Shown here piece after piece: positions 3,109 to 21,717 of a stretch of 26,883 nucleotides of DNA. The translations under genes were made by a program, and so were the position numbers. The notes beneath the pieces were generated by a model that had not been told where the DNA came from, searched no databases, and worked only from the letters and a program-made list of their open reading frames with translations. Within the stretch, counting starts at the first letter, position 1; every line of letters begins with the position of its first letter. This DNA comes from a virus, in the IMG/VR virus record IMGVR_UViG_3300003886_000039, positions 1 through 26,883 of that record. One strand, written 5' to 3'.

Positions 3109-3116
3109 TATTTATG
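3109..3116 (-). promoter_or_regulatory. Late promoter CATAAATA, leftward
   Basis: This minus-strand octamer lies in the divergent gap between the genes starting at 3076 and 3155. It is back to back with a rightward octamer at 3123-3130. Confidence 0.6.
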
Positions 3117-3122
3117 TATGGT

Positions 3123-3130
3123 GATAAATA
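3123..3130 (+). promoter_or_regulatory. Late promoter GATAAATA, rightward
   Basis: The plus-strand octamer GATAAATA lies 24 bases before the ATG at 3155, with an AGGGAG ribosome-binding site between. Only six bases separate it from the leftward octamer. Confidence 0.6.
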
Positions 3131-6868: not shown

Positions 6869-9022
6869 TTACAATGGAGTGTAGCCACTGGGAGTCTCAT
6901 CACCTTCCCCAAATAAAAATGGTATTGGTTCCTCATTTTCATCATACACTTCTTCAGAAGTATACTCATTCTCATCAATTGAGTATAATTTTTCAAATGC
7001 ATCCTGTTCATATGACGCAAGCTCAGACAACAAGCGAATGCAAATCATTGTGGCCATGATACTATCATCAGTACTTCCAGCCTGTGCTTCGTAGCTTTTT
7101 CGTTTTCTCGCAAACGATTTAATTTCAGCGACCATTACTGGAGAGTTAATCTGTATTCCGCCTCTTTCAACCAACAACCGAAAGTCCAAACAAGCTCTCA
7201 TTTTCCTTTTGTTTGTAGTGGTTAACCCAAGCCGGTTTTTTCCCTCCTCTGAAATCATTTCAGCAACTGGGGGGTGTTCATCATTTTGATACAACGCAAT
7301 AATACCTTCACCAACACCATTATTTTCCACTGAGAAGTAAACACTGCATCCCATTTTTTCAAGATGAATTATCATCCATTTCATCTTTGAATACACTTCA
7401 GGTGAGGACATTGAATCAGAACGCATCTCTGCCACTTGATTCATTGATGGAAATTGATAAACTTGTATGACACTAAAGTCAAGCCCCGTTCCAGTCGAAG
7501 GATCGACCCCTATAAGGTAGGTACTTTTCGGAAGTATATCAGCATAAAAATCAAAATCATTTTGTTTACGTAAAAACGGATGCCTATTCAACTCCATCAT
7601 AGTGGATAGTTGCGAATCAATTAGTAATGCATCGGAGGATAAAAATTCACATTCATATTCTTGGCGCCACTTAAGATCCCCAAGAGTTGCGACGACACTT
7701 TGTTTAAAGTCTTCGTCTCGGTCTGGCGGCTCATCCCACTTAACACGAATCGGCGTAAAGGGAAATTTGCTACTTTCCTGTTTGATGATTGGTTTTATGT
7801 CTTCAGTACTTTTTGTTGTACCATCATCGTCATCAGATAAATTTTCATTGGTTGTAATCGTTCTCAGGCCAACTTCAGCACTTCTCCATATTTGTGCGAA
7901 CTTGTTTGCATCCCCATTAGGAGTAGAGGACATGATACAACTACCACCTGTAGCTAGGGTGGGAGATATTGCAGTCCAAAACTCTTCTTGAATACTCGGA
8001 GCAACGAATGCAAACTCATCAAGAAACAACATTGAGATTGAAAATCCACGCCCAGTGTTTTCAGAGGTGGCAGCGGAGAGAATTCGGGATTGGTTGTCAA
8101 ATATTAAACTGTGTTTATTCCAACCATCATCAGTAACCCCAGGTTTTAACCAATTTGGAATATTCTCATATGCATATCTGATACGTGATATCATCTCCAT
8201 GGCATTGGCGTTTTTATTCGCAGCAATGAGGATAGTTTTATCAAACCGGAACATTGCATACCACAACAAGTATATTGCTGATACGGTTGAATTGTGGGAT
8301 AAAATATTATTTGTGTAGTAAACGTGATTAGTGTCTTCCAACTCTAAATCATACATGTTATCTTTATTACTGGTCTCAACAATGGATGTTATTGATTCTA
8401 TTCCAGTTTTTGTTTTGATTCTATCACCTGTGATTAAATTGTTAACATATATTTCTTGGTCAAATTCATCAATCACTGTATGAGTATCAGCACAATCCAA
8501 CATATGAGAGGTCGTCCGTATTTTCCATACAATAAATGGTACAGTTCGATGGGAGTGTTTAATCGGTGAATACCCAGTTGGGGTTTCTACTAACACATTA
8601 TGGGGATTTGTTTGCTCGATAAATTTTAATTCGTTTGTATCTTCGTCATAAATTTGACAAGTGCTTGGAGATAGATATTCATGCAACTTACTAATTGTTA
8701 TTGTTTGTTTTACATTATTAGATGATCCAGACTGCGGTGGTAATATCACATTGATAAGAGTGTTTGGTGAGCAGCATTTACCGGTTTGGCGGGCGGACAG
8801 GACAACACAATACCGATTGTCCCTATAGGCTTCTATCATGCGTTCTTGGTACGGGTATAATGCAAATGGGATAGCGCCTCTTGTTGGGTGTTGAATCCGT
8901 GCATATGTTTTTATAAAGTGCACAGGATCATCCATACACTTTTTCACCTCCAGTAGTTGTTCTGGGGTAAATTCTGTAAGCTCGCCTGCTCTTTTAATCC
9001 CTGGATTATTTTTCATACCCAT
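6869..9022 (-). CDS. terL: Terminase large subunit (gp17-like) interrupted by an in-frame mini-intein
   Basis: This is the packaging motor ATPase and headful nuclease. The 717-residue precursor contains a 162-residue intein (residues 83-244). Splicing would leave 555 residues, near T4 gp17 (610). The ATPase domain has Walker A SARQTGK (76-82) joined to S245-TVSA after splicing, Walker B MLFLDEFAF (D335, E336) and motif III SSTPNG (365-370). The RNase H-fold nuclease domain has D507 (IGVDPSTG), E566 (SVENNG) and D652/D653 (STDDSIM). Residues about 390-415 form an acidic loop (SDDDDG). Two starts are possible, M1 and M3, and neither has a clear ribosome-binding site. A perfect late octamer lies six bases upstream of the first ATG. 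The small subunit is encoded just upstream. Confidence 0.93.
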   Translation of the reverse strand: MGMKNNPGIKRAGELTEFTPEQLLEVKKCMDDPVHFIKTYARIQHPTRGAIPFALYPYQERMIEAYRDNRYCVVLSARQTGKCCSPNTLINVILPPQSGSSNNVKQTITISKLHEYLSPSTCQIYDEDTNELKFIEQTNPHNVLVETPTGYSPIKHSHRTVPFIVWKIRTTSHMLDCADTHTVIDEFDQEIYVNNLITGDRIKTKTGIESITSIVETSNKDNMYDLELEDTNHVYYTNNILSHNSTVSAIYLLWYAMFRFDKTILIAANKNANAMEMISRIRYAYENIPNWLKPGVTDDGWNKHSLIFDNQSRILSAATSENTGRGFSISMLFLDEFAFVAPSIQEEFWTAISPTLATGGSCIMSSTPNGDANKFAQIWRSAEVGLRTITTNENLSDDDDGTTKSTEDIKPIIKQESSKFPFTPIRVKWDEPPDRDEDFKQSVVATLGDLKWRQEYECEFLSSDALLIDSQLSTMMELNRHPFLRKQNDFDFYADILPKSTYLIGVDPSTGTGLDFSVIQVYQFPSMNQVAEMRSDSMSSPEVYSKMKWMIIHLEKMGCSVYFSVENNGVGEGIIALYQNDEHPPVAEMISEEGKNRLGLTTTNKRKMRACLDFRLLVERGGIQINSPVMVAEIKSFARKRKSYEAQAGSTDDSIMATMICIRLLSELASYEQDAFEKLYSIDENEYTSEEVYDENEEPIPFLFGEGDETPSGYTPL
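8291..8776 (-). other. Mini-intein inside the TerL Walker A motif
   Basis: The insertion of exactly 162 codons begins at Cys83 (CCSPNTLINV, splicing block A). It contains a block B-like segment (LDCADTHTVID, with the T-x-H-type histidine) and ends with blocks F and G (MYDLELEDTNHVYYTNN, then ILSHN). The first extein residue after it is Ser245. The residues required for standard protein splicing are all visible: Cys1, the block B His, the penultimate His, the terminal Asn and the +1 Ser. Only about 35 residues separate block B from block F, so there is no room for a LAGLIDADG or HNH endonuclease. It sits between Lys and Ser of the ATP-binding loop, so the unspliced protein should be inactive as an ATPase. 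Confidence 0.92.
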
Positions 9023-11505: not shown

Positions 11506-12093
11506 TTACGCTCCAGCACCGCCTGTACCAACACCCTGACCGGCGTTGTAACCAGTGATATCCTGGCGGGCGTGGTCGTACCGAACAGTTGTGGTTATTT
11601 GAACTGCCTCACTTGCTGAGTAATCTAATTCTGTCCAATCAACATTTTGTAACCAGCAACCTTCCATTGTCCACTTTTCAACAACTGTATCATTACCATC
11701 TAACATATCAAGATATGTAACGAATTTGTAAATTGAACCTTCAGCCGCGGCTGCAAGAAATTGTCCTTCAACACCAATCAAGAACTGTTGTTTTTGTAGT
11801 TGTTCTTGTATCACACGAGTTGCCCCACTTGTTAAATCATCTTCAAGTGTCAACGTAACAGGTTCCCACATATGTTTACCAGCAACCCACGCACGAGAGT
11901 TGTAACGATGTAATTCAACTTCTTCGAATGATAATGTTGGTCGTGTTACTGTCACCGCTTGCACCGAAACGGGCTGGGAGTCTACACCACCGCCCATATT
12001 AGCAAACGTGACGCGCCATCTATTGCGCATCTTCGGTTGTAGGATACCAGCACCATCAAGTCCTGGGATACCAATGTCATTAATCGTAGCCAT
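11506..12093 (-). CDS. 19: Tail tube protein gp19-like
   Basis: This 195-residue protein (T4 gp19 is 163) forms the inner tube of the contractile tail. It begins MATINDIGIPGLDGAGILQPK, then RNRWRVTFANMGGG, SVQAVTVTRPTLSFEEVELH and WEPVTLTLEDDLT. Later come WTMEGCWLQNVDWTELDYS and VQITTTVRYDHA, and it ends in a Gly/Ala-rich tail. The closing D-Y-S-x-S-E-x-V-x-I-x-x-x-x-R-Y-D pattern is characteristic of phage tube proteins. AGGAG precedes the ATG by 9 bases. The gene has its own perfect late promoter and its own terminator, as expected for a major structural protein. The sheath gene lies upstream but is separated from it by the 5-kb invaded segment. Confidence 0.9.
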   Translation of the reverse strand: MATINDIGIPGLDGAGILQPKMRNRWRVTFANMGGGVDSQPVSVQAVTVTRPTLSFEEVELHRYNSRAWVAGKHMWEPVTLTLEDDLTSGATRVIQEQLQKQQFLIGVEGQFLAAAAEGSIYKFVTYLDMLDGNDTVVEKWTMEGCWLQNVDWTELDYSASEAVQITTTVRYDHARQDITGYNAGQGVGTGGAGA

Positions 12094-12095
12094 TC

Positions 12096-12103
12096 TATAA
12101 ATA
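12096..12103 (+). promoter_or_regulatory. Plus-strand TATAAATA, possible late promoter for the endonuclease gene
   Basis: This perfect octamer on the plus strand lies 68 bases before the TTG start at 12172. On the other strand the same bases fall between the ribosome-binding site and ATG of the tail tube gene, so the match could be dictated by that site. Confidence 0.4.
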
Positions 12104-12146
12104 CTCCTGTAAGATAAACGATCTAACGCAAAATATGTCTTAGTGG

Positions 12147-12154
12147 TATTTATA
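12147..12154 (-). promoter_or_regulatory. Perfect late promoter TATAAATA for the tail tube gene
   Basis: This is an exact T4 late consensus on the minus strand, about 54 bases before the tube ATG at 12093. A strong ribosome-binding site AGGAG lies in the leader. Confidence 0.75.
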
Positions 12155-12171
12155 GATATGGGGCCAAAACA

Positions 12172-13641
12172 TTGAAAAAACCCAATAACATCTTGATTGA
12201 TATCTGTAAAAGGGTATTTGGTCTAATTGGACAGGCAAAAAAACCAGGATTGACACTATCCAAATCAGAACGGTTACAACTAACTGACGCAACAAGTTTT
12301 TTAACGAAAGCCACCACAATGCAACGAGCTTGGCATGTAATACACAACACCCAATCATTACCATTGTGTACGTGTGGTAAGAAACTTTCATGGAGAACAC
12401 AGTTGTTTAAGTATTCCACCTTTTGTTCCTCAACATGTGCATATAAGGATGGAGGCGTGCAGCATAAGAAAAGAGAGACAAATATTTCTCGATACGGGTC
12501 ACCATCTCCGTTCGGTTCCACAAACATTCAACACAAAGCGGCAAATACAGTTCGACTGAGATACAATGTCAACAATGTATCACAAATACCCGCTGTTATT
12601 GAGGGTAAGAAATTAAAACAAACGAGAAAATTTTCTGTTGAGGAGGTAAGTTCCTTTAAAACTTTGATTGATCGTAATCTAACACAACAAGCAATAGGTG
12701 ATGTGGTGGGGTGTGCTCAACCAACAGTCTCAAAAATATTCAATCGATTGGATCTCCATACCAAACGGAATACCATGTCGACTATGCAATCTGATATCAC
12801 AAAATTTGTGCAGGAGTTAATTCCTGATAAATCTATTAAAACAGATTGTGCTACAGTGATTGCACCGTACCATGTAGATATTTTCATCCCAGAAATAAAG
12901 ATTGCAATTGAGGTTAACGGAACATTCTGGCACAGCCAGTTATCAGGGCGAGATAACAAGTACCACCAACAAAAGATGTTAATGTGTCGGAATAAGGGGA
13001 TTCAGTTAATCCAAATATCAGATAGTGACTGGAGAACGAAAAAGTCAATAGTAGAATCTCGGCTGAGCTATCTCTTGTCTGAACCCAAATATCGGTTTTA
13101 TGGTAGAAAGTGTGAGGCGAGAGAGATTAGCGTTAAAGAGGCTAACGGCTTTTGTGACAGTCACCATTTACAGGGATCACATTCAGCGTCGTGTAATTAT
13201 GGACTCTACCACGAAGGAGAGCTGGTTGTGGTTATGACCTTTTCACGTGCCCGGTTTTCAAAACAGTATCAATATGAAATGGTTCGTTTTTGTGTACGAC
13301 AGAATACCGTTGTAGTTGGTGCGATGAGTAAATTAGTTAAAACGTTTGTGAGATTGAACCCTGTCAAAAGTATTGGTACATATGCGGATTTGAAATGGGG
13401 GTTAGGTTCTTACGGAAACGCGGGGTTCAAACACATACACAACTCAACTCCAGATTACCATTATTTTTTGCGGAATGGCGACACAACAATTTTATTTTCT
13501 CGTAACAAATTTCAAAAACATAAATTGGCCTCACAGTTACCAAACTTCAACCCACAGTTGACTGAATGGGAAAATATGCAAGCCCATGGGTATGATCGGA
13601 TTTGGGGTTGTGGGCATGCACTGTGGGTTTGGGAGATTTAA
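12172..13641 (+). CDS. Freestanding homing endonuclease, Vsr-like (EDxHD-type), 489 residues
   Basis: The start is a TTG; no in-frame ATG lies upstream. The domains, in order, are: a Cys cluster C66, C68, C85, C89 (LCTCGK ... FCSSTC), probably zinc binding; about two degenerate repeats of the R-Y-G type (ISRYGSPSPFGS, LRYNVNNVSQ; DUF723-like); and a helix-turn-helix at about 165-195 (LTQQAIGDVVGCAQPTVSKI). A Vsr-like nuclease domain then runs about 205-300, with D236 (VDIFIP), E247 (AIEVNG), W253-H254, H265 and D285/D287. The C-terminal domain ends with the Y-D-R-I-W-x-C-G motif. The family is related to very-short-patch repair nucleases and includes phage homing enzymes such as I-Bth0305I. 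It lies opposite the tail tube gene and has two paralogues in this window. Target site unknown. Confidence 0.8.
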   Translation: MKKPNNILIDICKRVFGLIGQAKKPGLTLSKSERLQLTDATSFLTKATTMQRAWHVIHNTQSLPLCTCGKKLSWRTQLFKYSTFCSSTCAYKDGGVQHKKRETNISRYGSPSPFGSTNIQHKAANTVRLRYNVNNVSQIPAVIEGKKLKQTRKFSVEEVSSFKTLIDRNLTQQAIGDVVGCAQPTVSKIFNRLDLHTKRNTMSTMQSDITKFVQELIPDKSIKTDCATVIAPYHVDIFIPEIKIAIEVNGTFWHSQLSGRDNKYHQQKMLMCRNKGIQLIQISDSDWRTKKSIVESRLSYLLSEPKYRFYGRKCEAREISVKEANGFCDSHHLQGSHSASCNYGLYHEGELVVVMTFSRARFSKQYQYEMVRFCVRQNTVVVGAMSKLVKTFVRLNPVKSIGTYADLKWGLGSYGNAGFKHIHNSTPDYHYFLRNGDTTILFSRNKFQKHKLASQLPNFNPQLTEWENMQAHGYDRIWGCGHALWVWEI

Positions 13642-13642
13642 G

Positions 13643-13918
13643 TTATTTTTCAATCTCGACTGACTTAAGTACCTTGAAGTCAAAAGCACGGATGATTATC
13701 GTGATATTCTGCATGGATTCCTCCGTGAGTTCAGCATCAATAGCACCAACAGCACCAAGGTGTTCGTACACTCGTCCAACTCTCGCAAGTGTTGTAGCGT
13801 TGACATCTGATACGTGTATGTTTTCTTGGTACTTCTCCGGGAGAGAATTTGGGATTGGGATGATAATCCCAAACTCGAAGCAAATTATTATTACCCTATC
13901 GTTGACTTTGATTTGACC
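13643..13918 (-). pseudogene. 5'-truncated ORF remnant of unknown function
   Basis: A 91-codon minus-strand frame is open from a TAG at 13919-13921 to a TAA at 13643. It contains no ATG, GTG or TTG start before its late internal Met. It reads like real coding sequence: IIICFEFGIIIPIPNSL, VNATTLARVGRVYEHL, AVGAIDAELTEESMQNI, IIIRAFDFKVLKSVEI. An AGGG is followed by ATA/ATT codons, so a rare ATT or ATA start is possible. A 5'-deleted gene, cut by arrival of the adjacent secreted-protein cassette, fits better. It ends two bases beyond the stop of the plus-strand endonuclease. Family not recognised. Confidence 0.5.
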
Positions 13919-13930
13919 CTAAGTGATAAT
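13902..13930 (+). promoter_or_regulatory. Sigma70-type promoter of the secreted-protein cassette
   Basis: TTGACT (13902-13907), a 17-base spacer and GATAAT (13925-13930) each match consensus at 5 of 6. The expected start near 13937 gives a leader of about 60 bases to the ATG at 13996. No late octamer is present. Confidence 0.65.
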
Positions 13931-13936
13931 CACTTA
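13920..13936. promoter_or_regulatory. 17-bp perfect palindrome over the -10 box, operator-like
   Basis: TAAGTGATAATCACTTA is an 8+1+8 perfect inverted repeat that covers the -10 hexamer and runs to the predicted start point. This is the classic placement of a repressor operator. No repressor gene is visible in the window, so the binding protein would be encoded elsewhere in the phage or by the host. Confidence 0.6.
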
Positions 13937-13995
13937 TCGGTTGGGAAAATACGAATCGATCATTCTTCAACACACTTAAAATAGGAAATTTAGTT

Positions 13996-14478
13996 ATGAA
14001 AAAGGTTTTATTGTTAATCGGAATTATGCTGATGGTAGTATCCAGTTCTTCGTTTGCTGACAGTGACCAGGCGGATCGAGCGCGGATTGCATTTGTGAAT
14101 TTGGGAGATGATGCCATGCAGTGTGCTGTGTTTCAGAAAATAATGACTGATGTGACTATCAATTATTATGAAGGTAAGGGAATTTCCAAGGAGAAAAAGT
14201 CTATAGACCAAGTTGCACGGATAATCGGTTACCGAAACGAGATGGTTGTCATGGCGGCTATATTGTATAAGGCGGGGGGTGTATCAACTGCTGCTGTAGT
14301 GGCAAAATCCGGTTTAATGTTAGATGACCAAATGGATCAAATTGACGGTTGCTTCTGTAACATATCGATTCTTTATCAGAAGTATCTCAAATCCTGCGCC
14401 GCCCTTGCCACTGAGGACGGTTTTAACACCCAAATGTTAAAGCGTTTTGCTGAACAGAACATTGTCCCAACACCTTAA
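13996..14478 (+). CDS. Secreted (periplasmic) accessory protein, moron-like, 160 residues
   Basis: The N-terminus is a clear Sec signal peptide: MKK, a hydrophobic core (VLLLIGIMLMVV), small residues, and a likely cleavage after SSSFA before DSDQ (about residue 21). There is no lipobox cysteine. The mature part (~139 residues) looks helical, with motifs DDAMQCAVFQKIM, GYRNEMVVMAAILYK and GCFCNISILYQKYLKSC. Its four or so cysteines could form disulfides in the periplasm. AGGAAA precedes the ATG. The gene has its own sigma70 promoter, palindromic operator and strong terminator, independent of the surrounding late units, which is typical of a host-derived moron expressed early or from a prophage. 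The function is not known; superinfection exclusion or host fitness are only possibilities. Confidence 0.7.
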   Translation: MKKVLLLIGIMLMVVSSSSFADSDQADRARIAFVNLGDDAMQCAVFQKIMTDVTINYYEGKGISKEKKSIDQVARIIGYRNEMVVMAAILYKAGGVSTAAVVAKSGLMLDDQMDQIDGCFCNISILYQKYLKSCAALATEDGFNTQMLKRFAEQNIVPTP

Positions 14479-14486
14479 CCTGAATG

Positions 14487-14519
14487 AAAAAGGGGGCTCG
14501 TTTTGAGCCCCCTTTTTTT
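14487..14519 (+). terminator. Strong bidirectional rho-independent terminator
   Basis: The stem GGGGGCTC (14492-14499) / GAGCCCCC (14505-14512) has a 5-base loop, with five A before and seven T after, so it can work on both strands. It ends the secreted-protein transcript and also the leftward endonuclease operon at 14541. Confidence 0.9.
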
Positions 14520-14540
14520 GCGTGAGAATGTCATTAACTC

Positions 14541-15989
14541 CTACACGATATTGTTGGTTAGTTTAAATCTAATTTTTCCACAATCCCAAATTCGAAGCAA
14601 CTTATTGTTATGACAATTTTCTCGTTCTGATAACTTTGGGTCGTATATAGATAGTTTTTTTGATAACTTTGAACGCCGATAATTAAATTTATGCACTCTA
14701 TGCAACCCATCAGCGGAGTAACTATAATCAGGTGGAATAATTTTATCCTGTAACCACCCAGCGCGTCTATATAGATTTCCAGTGCTCCAACGTTGATCAG
14801 CAAAAGACACAATCTCAACCCACCTGTGGTTCTGTTGGAAATAAGTTAGAAGTTTTGTAAACCCACCAATCACATGTGCTGATGTTGCATAGCGATTGAG
14901 ATAGTAAAAGCCATTTGATTTCTTAATAAATGACATGCACGCTACTAAAAGACTATCGTGTTGCAACCCTATGTTAATACTACCAGGTCCGTTACCTTGA
15001 ATGTGATTGATATCAAAGAACTGTTTCTTCTGACTGTGCGACACTGGAATAATATTGGTTTTCCTGGCAAAGATCCGCTGTTGGCTGTTGACACCAAGAA
15101 GAGTTTTAAGTTTTAGTTTCACTGGTGTGTTTCGCTCTAACCACTCATCCTCAAATAATGTTATCAGTTGAATCCCTTGTTGCTTGCATAAATCATGTTT
15201 TTTCTTGTGATAATGTCTATCTTTTCCTAATTGTTCCGAGTGCCAATACACCCCACAATATTCAATAGCGATATTATGTGATGGAATAAAGATATCTAGT
15301 TCTAGTGGTGATATTAACGATCGATCACTGCAAACAGTAGATAGCCCCAAATCATTGATAAATTCGTTAACCTCGTTTTCACCTTTTGATTTAGTGAAGT
15401 GTAATTTTTCGATATGATATTTTTCAAAGTAACTGGATACAACACTAACATCAGCATTGACCAACACTCCAATCTCCGTAAGGGTCAATTGTAGTATGTG
15501 GTGTTGGGTGTGTAGCCACTTTGGATCTGTTAACCAATCCATTCGAATGTTAGCTTGCCAAGGGTAATCAGACCCGAAGCGTGCATGTGATGTACTAATT
15601 TTCTTTTGTTTGATGGCATCAGATTTGCTAGGGTTGGATACGCCATAGTTATTGATAGTGGTTAGACACTTCTTTTCTTTTACAGAAGAAGCATTATTAG
15701 AACAATGTAAACTACAAAAGGTGTGATGATATGTATTGCGGTGTTTTCCGGTTTTAGTAAACGTAATTTGATTACCACAAACACACAATGGTGGGATTGT
15801 GTTATTCAGAATGCAATATAGCCGTTCTCTAGTGGAATCAATAAAAGGTTTGGTGATAAATTCAGTCGCTAATATAATTTGTTCGATCAATTGGGGGTCT
15901 TTGGACAACAAACATAGATATTTGGGGTTTAATCCTCGATTATCTTTCAAAAAAATGTTCTGTTGATGTAGTCGTTCTTTTAATGTCAT
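14541..15989 (-). CDS. Freestanding homing endonuclease, Vsr-like (EDxHD-type), 482 residues
   Basis: This is a paralogue of the 489- and 660-residue endonucleases. It has the Cys cluster C69, C71, C92, C96 (LCVCGN ... FCSLHC), about two R/N-Y-G repeats (INNYGVSNPSKSD), and a helix-turn-helix at about 165-195 (LTLTEIGVLVNADVSVVSSYF). The nuclease domain has D232 (LELDIFIP), E243 (AIEYCGVYWH, Y-C-G where the paralogues have V-N-G), H250, H261 and E280-D281 (LFEDEW). The C-terminal domain ends LLRIWDCGKIRFK. Its ATG overlaps the TGA of the GIY-YIG gene (ATGA), so its translation is probably coupled to that gene and inherits its regulation. The bidirectional terminator lies just downstream. Confidence 0.8.
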   Translation of the reverse strand: MTLKERLHQQNIFLKDNRGLNPKYLCLLSKDPQLIEQIILATEFITKPFIDSTRERLYCILNNTIPPLCVCGNQITFTKTGKHRNTYHHTFCSLHCSNNASSVKEKKCLTTINNYGVSNPSKSDAIKQKKISTSHARFGSDYPWQANIRMDWLTDPKWLHTQHHILQLTLTEIGVLVNADVSVVSSYFEKYHIEKLHFTKSKGENEVNEFINDLGLSTVCSDRSLISPLELDIFIPSHNIAIEYCGVYWHSEQLGKDRHYHKKKHDLCKQQGIQLITLFEDEWLERNTPVKLKLKTLLGVNSQQRIFARKTNIIPVSHSQKKQFFDINHIQGNGPGSINIGLQHDSLLVACMSFIKKSNGFYYLNRYATSAHVIGGFTKLLTYFQQNHRWVEIVSFADQRWSTGNLYRRAGWLQDKIIPPDYSYSADGLHRVHKFNYRRSKLSKKLSIYDPKLSERENCHNNKLLRIWDCGKIRFKLTNNIV

Positions 15990-17095
15990 AACAATTCTAA
16001 TATTGAGGGGAGAGTATCAATTGTTAAACATTCTGTAAATCCACCAAATTTATTTTGAGGAACATATTGGAACTCTTTAAAGTGGTCTAATATGAATTGT
16101 TCCATCTGAAAGGCATTGAATAATTCTAATTCATACTCTGCTAATATATCAAATTGGTATACAGATTCTGACATCAATCTTAACGCGGTTGTTCTTGTTG
16201 TTATCCCAACCTTCACAAACGATTCTGTTTCGTTATATCCTGTAACTACATATAACGTAGCCTTCTTTTGTTTATACTGCGGGTTGTTCAGAAAAAATTC
16301 CTTTGTGTATATTCCATTAACTCTGGGGTAACAAGTAGGACAGTACTGACCACTATACTGTTCATATCTATATGGTGTAAACACGCTAGCAGTTCTTGTA
16401 AACATATTATTACACGTTAAACATTGGACGGTCAACAAATAACCACTATCTGATACAGACTCTAATCGTATGTTATATTGTTTTAAATAATCATAAACCC
16501 TCGTTTGTTTTGCTTGTATTCGAGTATGATTTGATTTGATTGCAGTGTTTTTGATTTTTTGTCTTGATTCTACTGATAGATTTAGAGGCTTACCCTTACG
16601 CAATGTTGATGGGTGAATCCAACCATCCAATCGTTTTTGTTCTAGTGTAATTTGTCTTTTTTGTAATGATTCTATCGATACAACCCTACCTAAACTTGAT
16701 GCTCTTATCTTCGCTTTGGTTTCAGTAGATGTTTGTTTACCTAAATTGTGATGAATTCTCTCACCAGAATCATATTGTTTTTTCATGGTTTCCGATAAGT
16801 GTTCCTTCTGTTCTTCTGTCATTGGGACACCCTTGTTCCAAGCAGGGGCTGGGTTTAGTTTCCGCGAGTTTCTAATTTTTTCTTTTGTTGATTGAGTTCT
16901 CGGAACGCCTACCCTAGTCTTATTTCCTTCATTGGCTCCAAGTTGTCTCCGTTGTTTGCTTTCGGGCGAAGCAATCTGTGCTTCAGGAAACATATTTTTA
17001 TATTCAGTGATTGAAAGTTGGTGGTGTTTGAGGTGGGAGGCAGTTAGTTGTTTGAATTCCCGTTTACAGATTTGGCATTGGATTGTTTGTTCCAT
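15986..17095 (-). CDS. Freestanding GIY-YIG-type homing endonuclease with NUMOD3-like repeats
   Basis: This 369-residue protein has an N-terminal C2H2-like finger (C7, C10, H21, H25; IQCQICKREFKQLTASHLKHH) followed by YKNMFPEA, the usual N-terminus of a class of phage homing enzymes. Three NUMOD3-like DNA-binding repeats follow (WNKGVPMTEEQKEHLSETM, NLGKQTSTETKAKIRAS, RKGKPLNLSVESRQKIKN). A second Cys cluster (C225, C228, C252, C255) comes next. A C-terminal GIY-YIG-superfamily domain (about 278-345) holds TLYVVTGY, FVKVGITT, R307 and the presumed catalytic Glu in FQMEQFIL (E332). Its GGAGG ribosome-binding site is seven bases before the ATG and lies within a hairpin. It sits directly downstream of the sheath gene and is coupled to the next endonuclease. 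Confidence 0.8.
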   Translation of the reverse strand: MEQTIQCQICKREFKQLTASHLKHHQLSITEYKNMFPEAQIASPESKQRRQLGANEGNKTRVGVPRTQSTKEKIRNSRKLNPAPAWNKGVPMTEEQKEHLSETMKKQYDSGERIHHNLGKQTSTETKAKIRASSLGRVVSIESLQKRQITLEQKRLDGWIHPSTLRKGKPLNLSVESRQKIKNTAIKSNHTRIQAKQTRVYDYLKQYNIRLESVSDSGYLLTVQCLTCNNMFTRTASVFTPYRYEQYSGQYCPTCYPRVNGIYTKEFFLNNPQYKQKKATLYVVTGYNETESFVKVGITTRTTALRLMSESVYQFDILAEYELELFNAFQMEQFILDHFKEFQYVPQNKFGGFTECLTIDTLPSILELL

Positions 17096-17097
17096 AA

Positions 17098-17127
17098 AAA
17101 TACCTCCACATTATTATGGAGGTATTT
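17098..17127 (-). terminator. Hairpin: sheath terminator that also masks the endonuclease ribosome-binding site
   Basis: Perfect 11-bp arms (17117-17127 and 17098-17108) flank an 8-base loop. On the minus strand the second arm is TGGAGGTATTT followed by TT and then ATG. It is positioned as an intrinsic terminator 25 bases after the sheath stop, with a short U tract. The same arm contains GGAGG of the GIY-YIG gene, so the folded RNA would block its translation. Confidence 0.75.
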
Positions 17128-17130
17128 ATA
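17123..17130 (-). promoter_or_regulatory. Late promoter TATAAATA embedded in the hairpin's 5' arm
   Basis: This perfect late octamer overlaps the upstream arm of the hairpin. With T4 spacing the transcript would start at about 17117, the last base of that arm. The RNA would then lack the masking arm and expose the ribosome-binding site. Confidence 0.65.
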
Positions 17131-17151
17131 TTAATCTATAACGAGGTTGCT

Positions 17152-19620
17152 TTAAAACAATTCAGCGCCAGTTGCGACCACACGAATTGGGATATACAAG
17201 AATTCAGCAGCCTTTGTTGGCTTCAATGCAACATCGATGTACAACTCATTCCGATCAATTCGGGCTGGGGTGTTATTCGATTCATCACTGACGGTCGCAT
17301 AATCGAACAAACCACGTTTAACCATTATGTCGCCAAGGAACCCATCGACTGCGGCTTTCAAATTGTTGCGAGTTAATTGGTCGTTTGGTTGGAACAAGAA
17401 TGGCAAGGAGTTCTTGCGTAGTTGACGCTTGATGAACATTAACATACGTTCGACATTAATACGGTCTCGAGCGCTTGCTGCAGGAGCAGAGGTCTTCTGT
17501 CCCCATACAAGAATGCCCCTTCCTGGGAAGAACACAATTGGGTTAAGATTAGTTGTGTACTTGTAGAGGTTGTCTCGTTGACCTTGATTCAACGCAATTT
17601 CCACAAAAGTAGTTGCGGTGCCGAGTGTACCGGTCACATAACCTACAGCAGTGACGCCCGATACCAAGCCTCGTCGTGTTCCTGCTGGGGCAAACCAAAC
17701 ATCACTTACATTATCACTAAAGGTGATTGTTCGTAGTGCAATACCACTTGATGCAATAAACACGTTTGTTCCGTCGAGGTTTGAAGCCAACCCATGTGGG
17801 TAATAATATGCAAGGTTTTCGCCCCGTTGTCGGGTTGAGTCGGTATCTGCCCACGTAACAACATCATCAGCGTTCATATTCATTGGTGTATCAGCAATTA
17901 CCAACGCTTCCTGTTCAATATCATCGGAGAGCGCTTTCATCTCATCTGCAGTCTCAAAATATCCAGGGCATAGGATTAAGTTAAATTCGATTGATTCGGA
18001 TCTAATATCCGTATTAGAGTTGATTGATGCTTGAAGAGCAGCAACAATCGCTACACGCCGGGCTGCATCGTTTGCACCAAGGCTTGTTTTATTTAAGAAC
18101 TCAACTGTGAATTGGAATAAGTCAGATGCTTCAAGTAATACATCTTTAGATTCCAACGCTGTAAATTCAAGCGCGGTTGTAGGACAAAAGAGTTGTGCAA
18201 CACAATCAGCAACCATTCCATCAAAACCGAAGTAATCACCAGTTGATGCAAGGGAGTAACCGTTTTCATAAATGGGCATCAAGGCATCAGCGTTAATGCC
18301 TGGAATTGAAGAACCAACCGCAAGGAAGCCTGTTAAGCTACCAAATACAGGGTCAGTTGCGCCGTCTGTAATCAATACTGTTGACCCAGATCCTATTGCT
18401 ACTGAAGTGATTTGTAAGTTACCTGCAACTACTGATGCGACTGCTGTACCAATCAAATCAATATCTATTTGAGCAATCAGAGCAACGTATGTTTGTGCAG
18501 CACTACCAGTAATTGCGATAGTGTGGTTTGTTCCGTCAACGTTAATTGTTGCGTTATAGATTGTAGCATCGTTTGCTAAACCTGTAGCAGAACCACCAGC
18601 GATTACATCAACACCAACAACTGCAGCATCAAGAACGTTAATGTTCCCTGCTGTTGTTAACGCTGCGAATAGGGGAGCACCGCCTACATCAGCAAGTAAA
18701 ATTGTTGAGGCACTTCCGAGTGAATCACTAGTGAAAAGTAAGTCACCATTACTGTCCAGTGTAAGAGTTGCACCTGTGACGGTGATCGCTGTCATTAAAT
18801 CAGCAATCGTTCCACCTGTCGTTACTCCCACTACAATATTTTGTGTTGCAGTACCATCAACCGTAATGTCAAAATTAAAGTTGCCAGTGGTCAATCCGTG
18901 AACCGTGGCACCCGTCAATGCTGGTGTGAAGTTTGCAATCTGGTAACCAGCAGTTGCTGGGATTGACGAAATGTTCCCACCAACATCAATAGTTTGTTTG
19001 CCAGAGGTAGAAACGGATGGATTGGTGTTGTCATCAAAGAAATCTGTCATTATGTTCGAAAATGTGAAACTGTCCCAAATATCTGATGTTGCTTCACGAG
19101 CCAAGGAAAGTAACTCCGAAGCCGTCACAGTTGTCTTGAAGCCAGTAGTTGATGGAATCAAACCATTTGCAATATTATATTCATCCATAAACGCAGTAAC
19201 TAGGTTTTCGAGAATGAAACCTGCATTAAGCATTTTAGCACCCCATGATACACGTATATCATCCAAGTCATCGTTGAGATTGACGTTCGAGCGAATGGCA
19301 AACGCTCTGTTACCAGCTCCTAAAAATTGGTTAAGAGCAAAAAGTCCGTATTCGTTTCGGGCATCACCGTGAAGTTGGTTGCCTTGGAAATCTTCCAGGA
19401 AGCGGGGTGTCCCAAACAGTTCTAGGCTTTGTTGTAGTGTTGTCACGGTACGAACCACGTTATATTCAAACGTTCCAGTGGCTGGAGACACACCATCTGG
19501 TTGTGTCTTTTCTTCAGCAGTAGCAAGAAAAATTAAAGGTACTGTAGGGGCCGCAGCTGGTATGAAGAAACTCTCATCAGTGATGGTGACTGATACACCT
19601 GCTGATACTAAATTAGCCAT
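17152..19620 (-). CDS. 18: Tail sheath protein gp18-like, enlarged by two inserted domains
   Basis: This is the contractile sheath protomer, 822 residues against 659 in T4. The N-terminus (MANLVSAGVSVTITDESFFIP) and PLIFLATAEEKTQPDG are typical. So is the C-terminal third: RGILVWGQKTSAPAAS, RINVERMLMFIKRQLRK, FLFQPNDQLTRNNLKAAVD, YIDVALKPTKAAEFLYIPI. These conserved end regions build the sheath core. About residues 225-432 are an insertion of two tandem hook-IN-like repeats. The first contains FDITVDGTATQNIVVGV; the second contains TIAITGSAAQTYVALIAQI, GNLQITSVAIGSGS and DPVFGSLTGF. They are probably displayed on the sheath surface. AAGGAA precedes the ATG, a late octamer lies upstream, and the hairpin at 17098 probably ends its transcript. 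Confidence 0.93.
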   Translation of the reverse strand: MANLVSAGVSVTITDESFFIPAAAPTVPLIFLATAEEKTQPDGVSPATGTFEYNVVRTVTTLQQSLELFGTPRFLEDFQGNQLHGDARNEYGLFALNQFLGAGNRAFAIRSNVNLNDDLDDIRVSWGAKMLNAGFILENLVTAFMDEYNIANGLIPSTTGFKTTVTASELLSLAREATSDIWDSFTFSNIMTDFFDDNTNPSVSTSGKQTIDVGGNISSIPATAGYQIANFTPALTGATVHGLTTGNFNFDITVDGTATQNIVVGVTTGGTIADLMTAITVTGATLTLDSNGDLLFTSDSLGSASTILLADVGGAPLFAALTTAGNINVLDAAVVGVDVIAGGSATGLANDATIYNATINVDGTNHTIAITGSAAQTYVALIAQIDIDLIGTAVASVVAGNLQITSVAIGSGSTVLITDGATDPVFGSLTGFLAVGSSIPGINADALMPIYENGYSLASTGDYFGFDGMVADCVAQLFCPTTALEFTALESKDVLLEASDLFQFTVEFLNKTSLGANDAARRVAIVAALQASINSNTDIRSESIEFNLILCPGYFETADEMKALSDDIEQEALVIADTPMNMNADDVVTWADTDSTRQRGENLAYYYPHGLASNLDGTNVFIASSGIALRTITFSDNVSDVWFAPAGTRRGLVSGVTAVGYVTGTLGTATTFVEIALNQGQRDNLYKYTTNLNPIVFFPGRGILVWGQKTSAPAASARDRINVERMLMFIKRQLRKNSLPFLFQPNDQLTRNNLKAAVDGFLGDIMVKRGLFDYATVSDESNNTPARIDRNELYIDVALKPTKAAEFLYIPIRVVATGAELF

Positions 19621-19673
19621 GTTGTCAATTTCCTTGTAGTGTTGTTGTTAGGGATGTAATATACATCTATAGA

Positions 19674-19681
19674 TATTTATG
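19674..19681 (-). promoter_or_regulatory. Late promoter CATAAATA for the sheath gene
   Basis: This minus-strand octamer lies about 54 bases before the sheath ATG and is divergent from the plus-strand octamer at 19704-19711. Confidence 0.65.
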
Positions 19682-19703
19682 AGGGGTTCCCTTTCACAAA
19701 GAA

Positions 19704-19711
19704 CATAAATA
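19704..19711 (+). promoter_or_regulatory. Late promoter CATAAATA for the plus-strand endonuclease
   Basis: This octamer lies 23 bases before the GTG start at 19735, with GGAGG (19723-19727) in the short leader. Confidence 0.6.
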
Positions 19712-19734
19712 GTGGAACAGTTGGAGGAAAATCA

Positions 19735-21717
19735 GTGGGTAAAAATGATATTTTGTGGGAACACGGTATACGTGAATTAAAAGCGATTAATGTATTTACT
19801 GAAGCGGGTGGCCTAAATCGCCAAAGTAGAGTTATATTGCGAAAATACCCCGGAATCATTCAAACCGTATTGGACTTAACAAGTTTTCTTCCACGGAACA
19901 CAGGGTTGGTTATTAGGTTGCAACATCTCCTTCAAAACATCACAGCCATTCCCACATGTCTAACTTGTGGTGGTCCATTAAAAATGCGTGCTAGTGGAAG
20001 GTTTATCAATACGTACTCTAAATTCTGCAAGTCTAAATGTTTCGGAAAAGACAAAAATGTGGTCGCTAAACGGAGTGCGACTAACTTGGAGCGATATGGA
20101 AACATTCACGTGGTGCAATCTGATGAAATTAAAGAGAAAGTCAAACAAACGAACTTGGCACGTTATGGAGTTGAAAATCCATTATTATCATCAGAGATAC
20201 AACACAAAGTCAAACAAACGAACTTAGCACGTTATGGAGTGGAAAATCCATTATTATCATCAGAGATACAACACAAAGTCAAACAAACGAACTTAGCACG
20301 TTATGGAGTTGAAAATCCATTATTATCATCAGAGATACAACACAAAGTCAAACAAACAAATCTACGTAAGTATGGAGTGGAAAATCCGTTCAATCTAAAT
20401 AAATTTCAACTAAAGGCTAGAAATTCAATCGTTGAAAAATATGGTGTTGGACACGCACTGCAGGATCCTATCATTAGAAAAAAATTTACAGACACAATGA
20501 AAAAATTCCATGGTGTAGAGCATGCATTGCAGGATGCTATTATTAGAAAAAAATTCACATCCACAATGGTTAAAAAGTATGGTGTAGAACATGCATTGCA
20601 GGACAAAGAAATGTTGGACACAGCTACCAGCAATAGAAGGGCGTTTGTAGCGGAGACGTATGGGGTGCAATATTATAACCAGTTGCTAATATCACCTGAT
20701 AGTTTGGAGTTGCTTAACAACAGGGTATGGTTGCAAGTGGAACATAGAGACAATAGAAAAACTCTTACTGATATTGCACACCAATTGGATGTCAGCCACA
20801 GTACTGTGAGTTTGTACTTCAAGAAACATGATATAGAAGTTTTAACTCACACCGGTAGTCAGATCGAGCGAGATATTGTTGAGTATATTTCAACAATATA
20901 CACACAAGAAATTAACACAAATGATAGAACCTTAATAAAACCACTCGAATTAGATATAGTACTTCCTGATAAGAAAATTGCGTTTGAAGTAAATGGAACA
21001 TACTGGCATTCACAATTGAGGGGTAAGGATAAACAATATCATATCAACAAAACAAAGCAGGCTGAGAGGATGGGATATCAGTTAATACACATTACTGACA
21101 AAGAATGGGTAACACAGCACAATATCGTCAAATCCAGAATTGCTGCAAAGCTTGGGGTCAGTAAAACAGTTGGTGCAAGGAAGACTATTATAAGGGAAGT
21201 GGTTGGCCCGGATGCATCAGAATTCTTTAATCAAAACCATATTCAAGGGGCGTGTGCGGCATCGGTTAGATACGGGCTATATCGAGACGGAGTGATGATA
21301 GCGTGTATGACGTTTGGAAAATCCAGATACAATAAAAAAATTGAATGGGAATTGCTTCGATTTGCTAACAAGGTTGGAGTGTCTGTTATTGGCGGTGCGT
21401 CGAAGTTATTCACCCATTTTGTGAAGGAGCATAATCCAACATCAGTGATATCGTATAGCGACAAACGGTGGAATACAGGAAAGTTATATTATAATTTAGG
21501 ATTTGACTATTCTCACACCTCACCCCCAAATTATCGATATTTCCTTCCTTCTGATTGCTTCAACACATATCCCCGTATTAAGTTTCAAAAACATAAATTG
21601 AGAAAGTTACTTGGTAAATTTAACACACAGTTGACAGAGTGGCAAAATATGGTTATTAATGGTTACGATCGAGTCTGGGATTGTGGTAATGATGTATGGG
21701 TATGGCAATCACACTAA
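19735..21717 (+). CDS. Freestanding homing endonuclease, Vsr-like (EDxHD-type), with expanded repeat array, 660 residues
   Basis: It starts at GTG, seven bases after GGAGG. It has the same plan as the 482- and 489-residue paralogues: Cys cluster (CLTCGG ... FCKSKC), R-Y-G repeats, a helix-turn-helix (LTDIAHQLDVSHSTVSLYF), then a nuclease domain with D407 (LELDIVLP), E418 (AFEVNGTYWHS), H425 and ITDKEW. The C-terminal domain ends YDRVWDCGNDVWVW. Its extra length comes from the repeat region, with about eight or nine units of the form Y-G-V-E-N/H-P/A-L. Three of these are nearly identical in DNA (20137-20343). The final nine bases overlap the 3' end of the convergent gp15 gene, so its stop codon lies inside that gene. 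It lies directly upstream of the sheath gene on the opposite strand. Confidence 0.82.
   Translation: MGKNDILWEHGIRELKAINVFTEAGGLNRQSRVILRKYPGIIQTVLDLTSFLPRNTGLVIRLQHLLQNITAIPTCLTCGGPLKMRASGRFINTYSKFCKSKCFGKDKNVVAKRSATNLERYGNIHVVQSDEIKEKVKQTNLARYGVENPLLSSEIQHKVKQTNLARYGVENPLLSSEIQHKVKQTNLARYGVENPLLSSEIQHKVKQTNLRKYGVENPFNLNKFQLKARNSIVEKYGVGHALQDPIIRKKFTDTMKKFHGVEHALQDAIIRKKFTSTMVKKYGVEHALQDKEMLDTATSNRRAFVAETYGVQYYNQLLISPDSLELLNNRVWLQVEHRDNRKTLTDIAHQLDVSHSTVSLYFKKHDIEVLTHTGSQIERDIVEYISTIYTQEINTNDRTLIKPLELDIVLPDKKIAFEVNGTYWHSQLRGKDKQYHINKTKQAERMGYQLIHITDKEWVTQHNIVKSRIAAKLGVSKTVGARKTIIREVVGPDASEFFNQNHIQGACAASVRYGLYRDGVMIACMTFGKSRYNKKIEWELLRFANKVGVSVIGGASKLFTHFVKEHNPTSVISYSDKRWNTGKLYYNLGFDYSHTSPPNYRYFLPSDCFNTYPRIKFQKHKLRKLLGKFNTQLTEWQNMVINGYDRVWDCGNDVWVWQSH
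20137..20412 (+). repeat. 69-bp tandem repeat array within the endonuclease gene
   Basis: Units at 20137-20205, 20206-20274 and 20275-20343 differ at only one or two bases each. A fourth, at 20344-20412, is diverged. Each encodes 23 residues (KVKQTNLARYGVENPLLSSE plus three). In-frame length means copy number can change without breaking the gene. Confidence 0.95.

Follow-up and report, generated by a model that had tools for sequence, protein, structure and literature searches.

A leader hairpin behind a phage tail sheath gene that probably masks a homing endonuclease and may also end the sheath message

Genes and Leader at the Sheath Locus

The window, i.e., the whole stretch of DNA analyzed here, is a virus fragment of 26,883 bases (IMG/VR record IMGVR_UViG_3300003886_000039) whose sheath, sheath-stabiliser and terminase were assigned to the T4 superfamily. 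On its minus strand, the tail sheath gene is followed by two homing endonuclease genes, and a short leader consisting of a late promoter, a hairpin that contains the Shine-Dalgarno sequence, and a run of T lies between the sheath stop codon and the first endonuclease ATG (Table 1). We observed the elements of this leader and their register, a folding difference between the two RNAs that would carry it, its conservation at this insertion site, and further examples of the arrangement elsewhere. The reading that we favor is that the leader does three jobs: it would end the sheath message, mask the endonuclease in read-through RNA, and start a late message of its own.

Among named phages, the jumbo phages XacN1 and RAS14/CM1 come nearest to the window, and PA5oct/Paride and 121Q are more distant. 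The window sheath is 45% identical to that of Xanthomonas phage XacN1. Single-protein scans of IMG/VR found no close relatives of the window, and a DNA-level similarity search among named phages gave another endonuclease as its sole match.

Endonuclease 1, initially annotated as a GIY-YIG gene, matches PHROG 681 "endonuclease" (E = 7.6e-13). The class label is likely but not secure: the Pfam domain T5orf172, which we take to belong to the GIY-YIG superfamily, reaches 19.4 bits on the C-terminal 110 amino acids (aa), below the cut-off of 20. A structure model of this C-terminal nuclease domain, with a mean predicted local distance difference test score (pLDDT) of 50, was too poor for fold comparison, and an alignment of the sheath-site endonucleases proved too divergent to serve as a search profile. 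The start of endonuclease 2 overlaps the stop of endonuclease 1 (ATGA); thus, both genes probably stand under the same leader.

Table 1. Features of the sheath-endonuclease locus and of the displaced tail tube gene in the window.
Feature	Position	Strand	Remarks
Tail tube gene	11506-12093	-	displaced ~5 kb from sheath
Own late promoter of tail tube gene, TATAAATA	12147..12154	-	
Strong bidirectional terminator, 13-bp stem	14487..14517	.	closes endonuclease pair
Homing endonuclease 2, 482 aa	14541..15989	-	PHROG 3339 homing endonuclease, E=7e-106
Homing endonuclease 1, 369 aa	15986..17095	-	N-terminal Cys/His finger, weak NUMOD3, C-terminal T5orf172/GIY-YIG-like nuclease
Endonuclease ATG	17093..17095	-	
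T-run TTTTT between Shine-Dalgarno and ATG	17096..17100	-	U-tract of proposed terminator
Hairpin 3' arm, TGGAGGTATTT	17098..17108	-	followed by TT, then endonuclease ATG
Shine-Dalgarno GGAGG in 3' arm	17103..17107	-	7 nt to ATG
Hairpin loop, 8 nt, taataatg	17109..17116	-	
Hairpin 5' arm, AAATACCTCCA	17117..17127	-	all but last base absent from predicted late-start RNA
Late promoter, TATAAATA, perfect T4 type	17123..17130	-	overlaps first 5 bases of hairpin
Tail sheath gene, 822 aa	17152..19620	-	PHROG 10581 tail sheath, E=5e-157
T4-type late promoter of sheath, CATAAATA	19674..19681	-	54 nt before sheath ATG

Read directly on the minus strand, the sheath TAA (17154-17152) is followed by 21 nucleotides (nt) and then by TATAAATA at 17130-17123. 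The perfect hairpin that had been noted between the sheath stop and the endonuclease ATG was confirmed: its 11 Watson-Crick pairs span 17098-17127. When the 59-nt interval was dinucleotide-shuffled 5,000 times, 3 shuffles reached as many. Folding 106 nt around the hairpin gave a z-score of -5.3, with none of 200 shuffles equally stable, and perfect stems of at least 10 bp occur at five places in the window, versus 0 or 1 per shuffled window (n=10). The well-spaced GGAGG in the second arm and the overlap of the first arm with a perfect late promoter were likewise found as described. T4 spacing predicts a late start at 17117, the position given in the initial annotation; this is the last base of the first arm and not the base after it, so that the late RNA would retain one of the 11 arm bases.

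Probable Masking and the Late Promoter

The T4-type late promoters of the window look real, since 13 of its 14 NATAAATA sites stand 6-69 nt upstream of a same-strand gene start, ATAAATA is also found upstream of the sheath gene in XacN1, RAS14, Paride, and 121Q, and relatives of the T4 late sigma factor gp55 are present in XacN1 (E 1.6e-6) and RAS14 (E 1.7e-7). The latter two are among the named phages with the sheath most like that of the window.

According to folding calculations, opening the Shine-Dalgarno sequence costs 16.3 kcal/mol in read-through RNA versus 8.0 kcal/mol in late RNA. The corresponding values are 17.6 and 0.8 kcal/mol for L013, a related locus described below, and 12.3 and 4.4 kcal/mol for a T4-like gene e used as control. 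The mean unpaired probability of the Shine-Dalgarno sequence lies between 0.000 and 0.03 in read-through RNA and is 0.49 in RNA starting at 17117 (short-range fold). These results agree with the expectation that late RNA is unmasked and read-through RNA remains folded. It had been framed as a contrast between early and late infection. The sheath gene has a late-type promoter of its own, CATAAATA at 19681-19674, and its read-through RNA is therefore probably late as well; the contrast that remains is the one between read-through and own-promoter RNA.

The masking logic itself is known from T4 gene e and I-TevI, as the initial annotation stated, and the layout is the same. It is an established device of I-TevI, I-TevII, I-TevIII, segB, and Aeh1 mobE, and likewise of e, soc, and others (PMC2988022, PMC3014915). 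In T4 I-TevI, I-TevII and I-TevIII, the hairpin buries the Shine-Dalgarno sequence in long transcripts, and a late promoter in or near the 5' arm yields RNA that lacks this arm (PMC2988022). These three leaders share masking hairpin and promoter position with the window, but they are intron-encoded inside early or middle genes and have no described role in ending an upstream message, whereas the read-through RNA of the window is probably itself late. segB and Aeh1 mobE resemble the window endonuclease in being free-standing genes with a masking hairpin. Taking together anatomy, folding, conservation in L013, and the known T4 cases, we regard a masking hairpin with a late promoter in the window as well supported and very probable.

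The Same Insertion Site in Relatives

In many relatives, the gap between sheath and tube gene measures 17-67 nt and is empty, and the insert of the window is absent there. As judged from these comparisons, endonuclease 1 is a free-standing gene between conserved genes that is missing from relatives at this place. At the corresponding place after the sheath gene, PA5oct-like phages and the loci L013, L085, L090, L091, and L113 likewise carry endonucleases whose N-terminal domain is related.

L013 lies on a different contig. Its sheath is 46% identical to that of the window, and its endonuclease is 38% identical over 164 aa (E 4e-32). The interval between both genes reads TATAAATACCTCCAAGTTAATAAATTTGGAGGTATTTTTTATG, with the core TATAAATACCTCC..14..GGAGGTATTTTTTATG. 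Promoter, 11-bp stem, Shine-Dalgarno sequence, T-run, and ATG are kept between the two loci, while loop and upstream spacer differ.

The sheath-site endonucleases of PA5oct/Paride share insertion site and N-terminal domain with the window, but a separate GC-rich terminator precedes a separate leader there, and the nuclease domain is of another type. In Paride, L085, L090, L091, and L113, the separate terminator is located well upstream of the endonuclease ATG and is followed by the endonuclease leader; in Paride, L090, L091, and L113, the type of nuclease domain is unlike that of endonuclease 1. At the sheath 3' site, L004, L090, L091, L113, and the window (15986-17095) combine a common N-terminal DNA-binding part with differing nuclease domains, which looks like nuclease swapping onto a fixed targeting part. 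Behind the sheath gene of L089, a hairpin whose 3' arm includes GGGG is accompanied by a long T-run and by the ATG of a short frame, but a late promoter is missing; this is perhaps a degenerate copy of the leader.

Fused Leaders behind Capsid, Sheath, and Tube Genes

We call the combination of late promoter, Shine-Dalgarno hairpin, T-run, and ATG a fused leader. Loci were collected by pattern scans of IMG/VR, and their upstream genes were identified by PHROGs. The pattern family was selected on CTCC..GGAG, and those pairs were not counted as evidence, only inner pairs and the T-run. L060-L069, whose pattern demanded TTT, were excluded from the T-run test, and fused flags at L231, L234, L254, and L296 (false positives with a weak second hairpin) were removed by eye. 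The 3' ends of gene 23 were taken from a separate protein-based scan.

Fused leaders were found behind the major capsid gene 23 at about a dozen loci, behind a T4-type sheath gene at L024 and L035, and behind a jumbo-type sheath gene in the window and L013. They also occur in cultured phages. In Rhizobium phage RHph_I1_18, the stop codon of the tail tube gene is followed by GATAAATACCTCGGAAACAATAACTCCGAGGTATTTTTATG and an annotated endonuclease (core GATAAATACCTCGG..CCGAGGTATTTTTATG), and Sinorhizobium phage phiM12 has CTAAATAACTCCGA..TCGGAGTTATTTTTTAAGTG, then an endonuclease. In phiM7 and phiN3 the hairpin is present, and the T-run is short or absent. The proposed fusion with the terminator of a structural gene, initially considered unusual, is thus found again in several lineages of endonucleases, located behind sheath, capsid, or tube genes.

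Several gene-23 loci depart from this composition. At L023 (2104-2678), the fused leader precedes a gene resembling the native downstream late gene and not an endonuclease. At L275, hairpin, T-run, and endonuclease are intact, and the promoter reads ACTAAATA in place of TATAAATA. Late promoter, hairpin, and T-run are kept at L069, where no endonuclease is present, and at L012 and L041, where the ATG is followed by a frame of only 16-17 codons. Possibly, the latter three loci are scars of endonuclease loss.

Stems behind structural genes have on average 4.65 extra inner pairs, compared with 1.04 in other late genes with the same core, and 75 inner compensating pairs were observed versus 29 with shuffled partners. 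These numbers belong to the comparative evidence for termination, and they also bear on the idea that the repeat is also, or mainly, a DNA operator, partly a protein-binding site through which the endonuclease represses its own late promoter. I-TevI does so via a site overlapping its late promoter (PMC2988022), and the window endonuclease has the N-terminal finger domain common to other endonucleases at the site. The repeat is, however, accounted for by pairing with the Shine-Dalgarno sequence, and the compensating stem changes in the wider family favor pairing of RNA; we consider an operator, for which no dedicated search was made, highly improbable.

Evidence on Termination

A strong terminator was found within 130 nt of the stop codon in all 74 distinct gene-23 3' ends. 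Where a fused leader follows gene 23 or a sheath gene, the hairpin with the Shine-Dalgarno sequence itself scores as a strong terminator and is the sole candidate at all but three loci. A strong terminator lies between the sheath gene and the next gene at 60 of 74 distinct sheath loci. Sheath loci with a tube start within ~60 nt are mostly without one, while nearly all sheath genes lacking a close-following gene have one.

Since terminators were seen at the 3' ends of most of the sheath genes and of all gene-23 copies examined, the hairpin might be mainly a sheath terminator, the promoter match and Shine-Dalgarno sequence being incidental and the endonuclease made weakly from read-through RNA. 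In addition, TATAAATA by itself is not rare in the window (5 copies versus 1.9 expected). The exact register of promoter, stem, Shine-Dalgarno sequence, and ATG is nevertheless kept in L013 and more than 12 other loci, and phages and loci with a separate leader (Paride, L085, L090, L091, L113) place their terminator well upstream of the endonuclease ATG. We therefore give this explanation very little credence.

At least five T within the 8 nt after the stem were found in all 17 hairpins behind gene 23 or sheath genes, whereas the median is 3 in 56 hairpins behind other genes (Mann-Whitney p = 7e-9); within GIY-YIG genes, with the window excluded, the contrast has p = 3e-4. Four points weigh against the three-job reading. 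Firstly, in the tree the endonucleases of gene-23 loci fall into a single clade, whose sister is formed by those of T4-type sheath loci, so that the T-run numbers are not independent. Secondly, the window T-run is just five bases long, its stem has four G-C pairs, and a simple terminator scan of the window did not list the leader hairpin. Thirdly, in the nearest endonuclease-free relatives (L070, L071-L073, L075, L077-L079, L082, L083, L107) the sheath gene runs directly into the tube gene without a terminator. Fourthly, in late RNA the Shine-Dalgarno sequence can pair with CCTCCC in the coding region (residual 8.0 kcal/mol; the short-range fold does not show this pairing), and gp55, whose relatives were found in XacN1 and RAS14, was not seen in the window fragment, where no search aimed at it was made.

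In view of the single gene-23 clade, we dropped the T-run correlation as proof of many independent origins. The clade has long internal branches, and the T-run is nonetheless retained in it; the endonucleases of the window and L013 belong to another family. In our home-made terminator score, the window hairpin reaches -18.8, with terminators of relatives ranging from -13 to -25. The proposal that the hairpin ends sheath transcripts is supported indirectly, by comparison with gene-23 and sheath loci. The case is better behind gene 23 than in the window, for which we judge useful termination rather likely; the short T-run, the four G-C pairs, and the missed hairpin keep us from a firmer statement.

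The most serious alternative is the known T4 device alone, i.e., masking and late-promoter bypass without useful termination at the hairpin, where sheath RNA would end at the terminator closing the endonuclease pair (14487-14517). Gene e, I-TevI, I-TevII, I-TevIII, segB, and Aeh1 mobE have the same layout without a described terminator role (PMC2988022, PMC3014915); the short window T-run missed by the scan, the strong terminator downstream, and the nearest relatives without a sheath terminator point the same way. In contrast, L013 has retained the T-run at this site, and behind gene 23 the T-run is long and varies little; terminators are universal there among the phages examined, and most fused loci have no other. 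Moreover, classic examples of the device do without it. Gene e in T4-like contigs (TATAAATACCTCC..GGAGGTATTATG) has nearly the same core and no T-run, and the T4 I-TevII leader, read directly as CCTCGTATAAATATGAATACGAGGTGAAACGATG, has none either (GAGGTGAAACGATG). Gene e further differs from the window in that it is not an endonuclease and the stop codon of its neighbor abuts the promoter. We consider the T4 device alone unlikely, though much less so than an operator or a mere terminator.

Terminators have been described near related endonucleases. That of mobE is a weak intrinsic one with about 30% termination (PMC2988022), and the terminators of mobE and segF lie inside the coding regions (PMC2988022, PMC3014915). 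In mobE, whose neighbors are nrdA/nrdB, terminator and masking hairpin are separate, whereas the window would combine both functions in a single hairpin, located behind a virion gene. A full-text literature search, with subscription papers largely outside its scope, found nothing on the joined arrangement beyond the 2010 reviews. As far as searched, hiding of the ribosome binding site is textbook T4 biology, and its fusion with the terminator of a capsid or tail gene is undescribed.

A Leader with Three Proposed Jobs

The three-job leader remains the explanation that we consider probable. How efficiently the window leader terminates, where transcription starts, and what follows for translation we infer as follows. 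RNA derived from the sheath gene would fold the hairpin at once, and stem and T-run would cause some of the polymerases to dissociate, which would place the 3' end of the sheath message at the T-run. RNA reading through would keep the Shine-Dalgarno sequence in the stem, such that both endonucleases would stay untranslated from the abundant sheath message. Polymerase with the phage late sigma factor would use the TATAAATA located within the stem, start near 17117, and produce RNA devoid of the 5' arm with a free Shine-Dalgarno sequence; the endonuclease level would then be set by its own promoter.

The hairpin as the phage's own sheath terminator captured by the endonuclease was rejected, as the nearest relatives have none. 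For the same reason, we infer that the insert divided the sheath-tube unit and supplied the terminator-like hairpin itself. The suggestion that a selfish gene could settle here without harm to sheath expression is plausible, but not by taking over an existing terminator.

Tentatively, and with somewhat less than even confidence, we extend this to other loci: several unrelated endonuclease lineages may independently have turned their leader into a capsid, sheath, or tube terminator, with the U-tract as spacer between Shine-Dalgarno sequence and ATG. If so, the virion gene would depend on the hairpin, the endonuclease control element would be hard to lose, and L069, L012, and L041 would be loss scars. 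For a selfish gene beside strongly expressed phage genes, one 60-base element could cut the neighbor's message, silence leakage, and give a separate late start. The fused leader, present as it is in cultured phages, can moreover serve as a pattern when metagenomes are searched for such genes.

Further Features of the Window

Four endonuclease-like genes are located within 10 kb (12172-21717), at 12172-13641 (+), 14541-15989 (-), 15986-17095 (-), and 19735-21717 (+), the last of which encodes tandem protein repeats KYGVENPLLSSEIQHKVKQTNLAR.

The tube leader (12093-12160) contains a perfect 10-bp inverted repeat, CTATAAATAC / GTATTTATAG. It is made up of the tube gene's late promoter on the minus strand and of a TATAAATA on the plus strand that faces the endonuclease gene at 12172. 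The far arm of the repeat sits between Shine-Dalgarno sequence and ATG. Opening this arm costs 10.9 kcal/mol in read-through RNA versus 1.0 kcal/mol in late RNA, and hence masking like that of the endonuclease may apply to the tube gene as well.

Divergent late-promoter pairs were observed at 3109-3130, with GATAAATA (+, 3123) beside CATAAATA (-, 3116), and at 19674-19711, with CATAAATA (+, 19704) opposite CATAAATA (-, 19681). A small intein (~8290-8775) seems to interrupt the large terminase subunit (6869-9022, minus strand) at the Walker A motif (GKCC...HNST).

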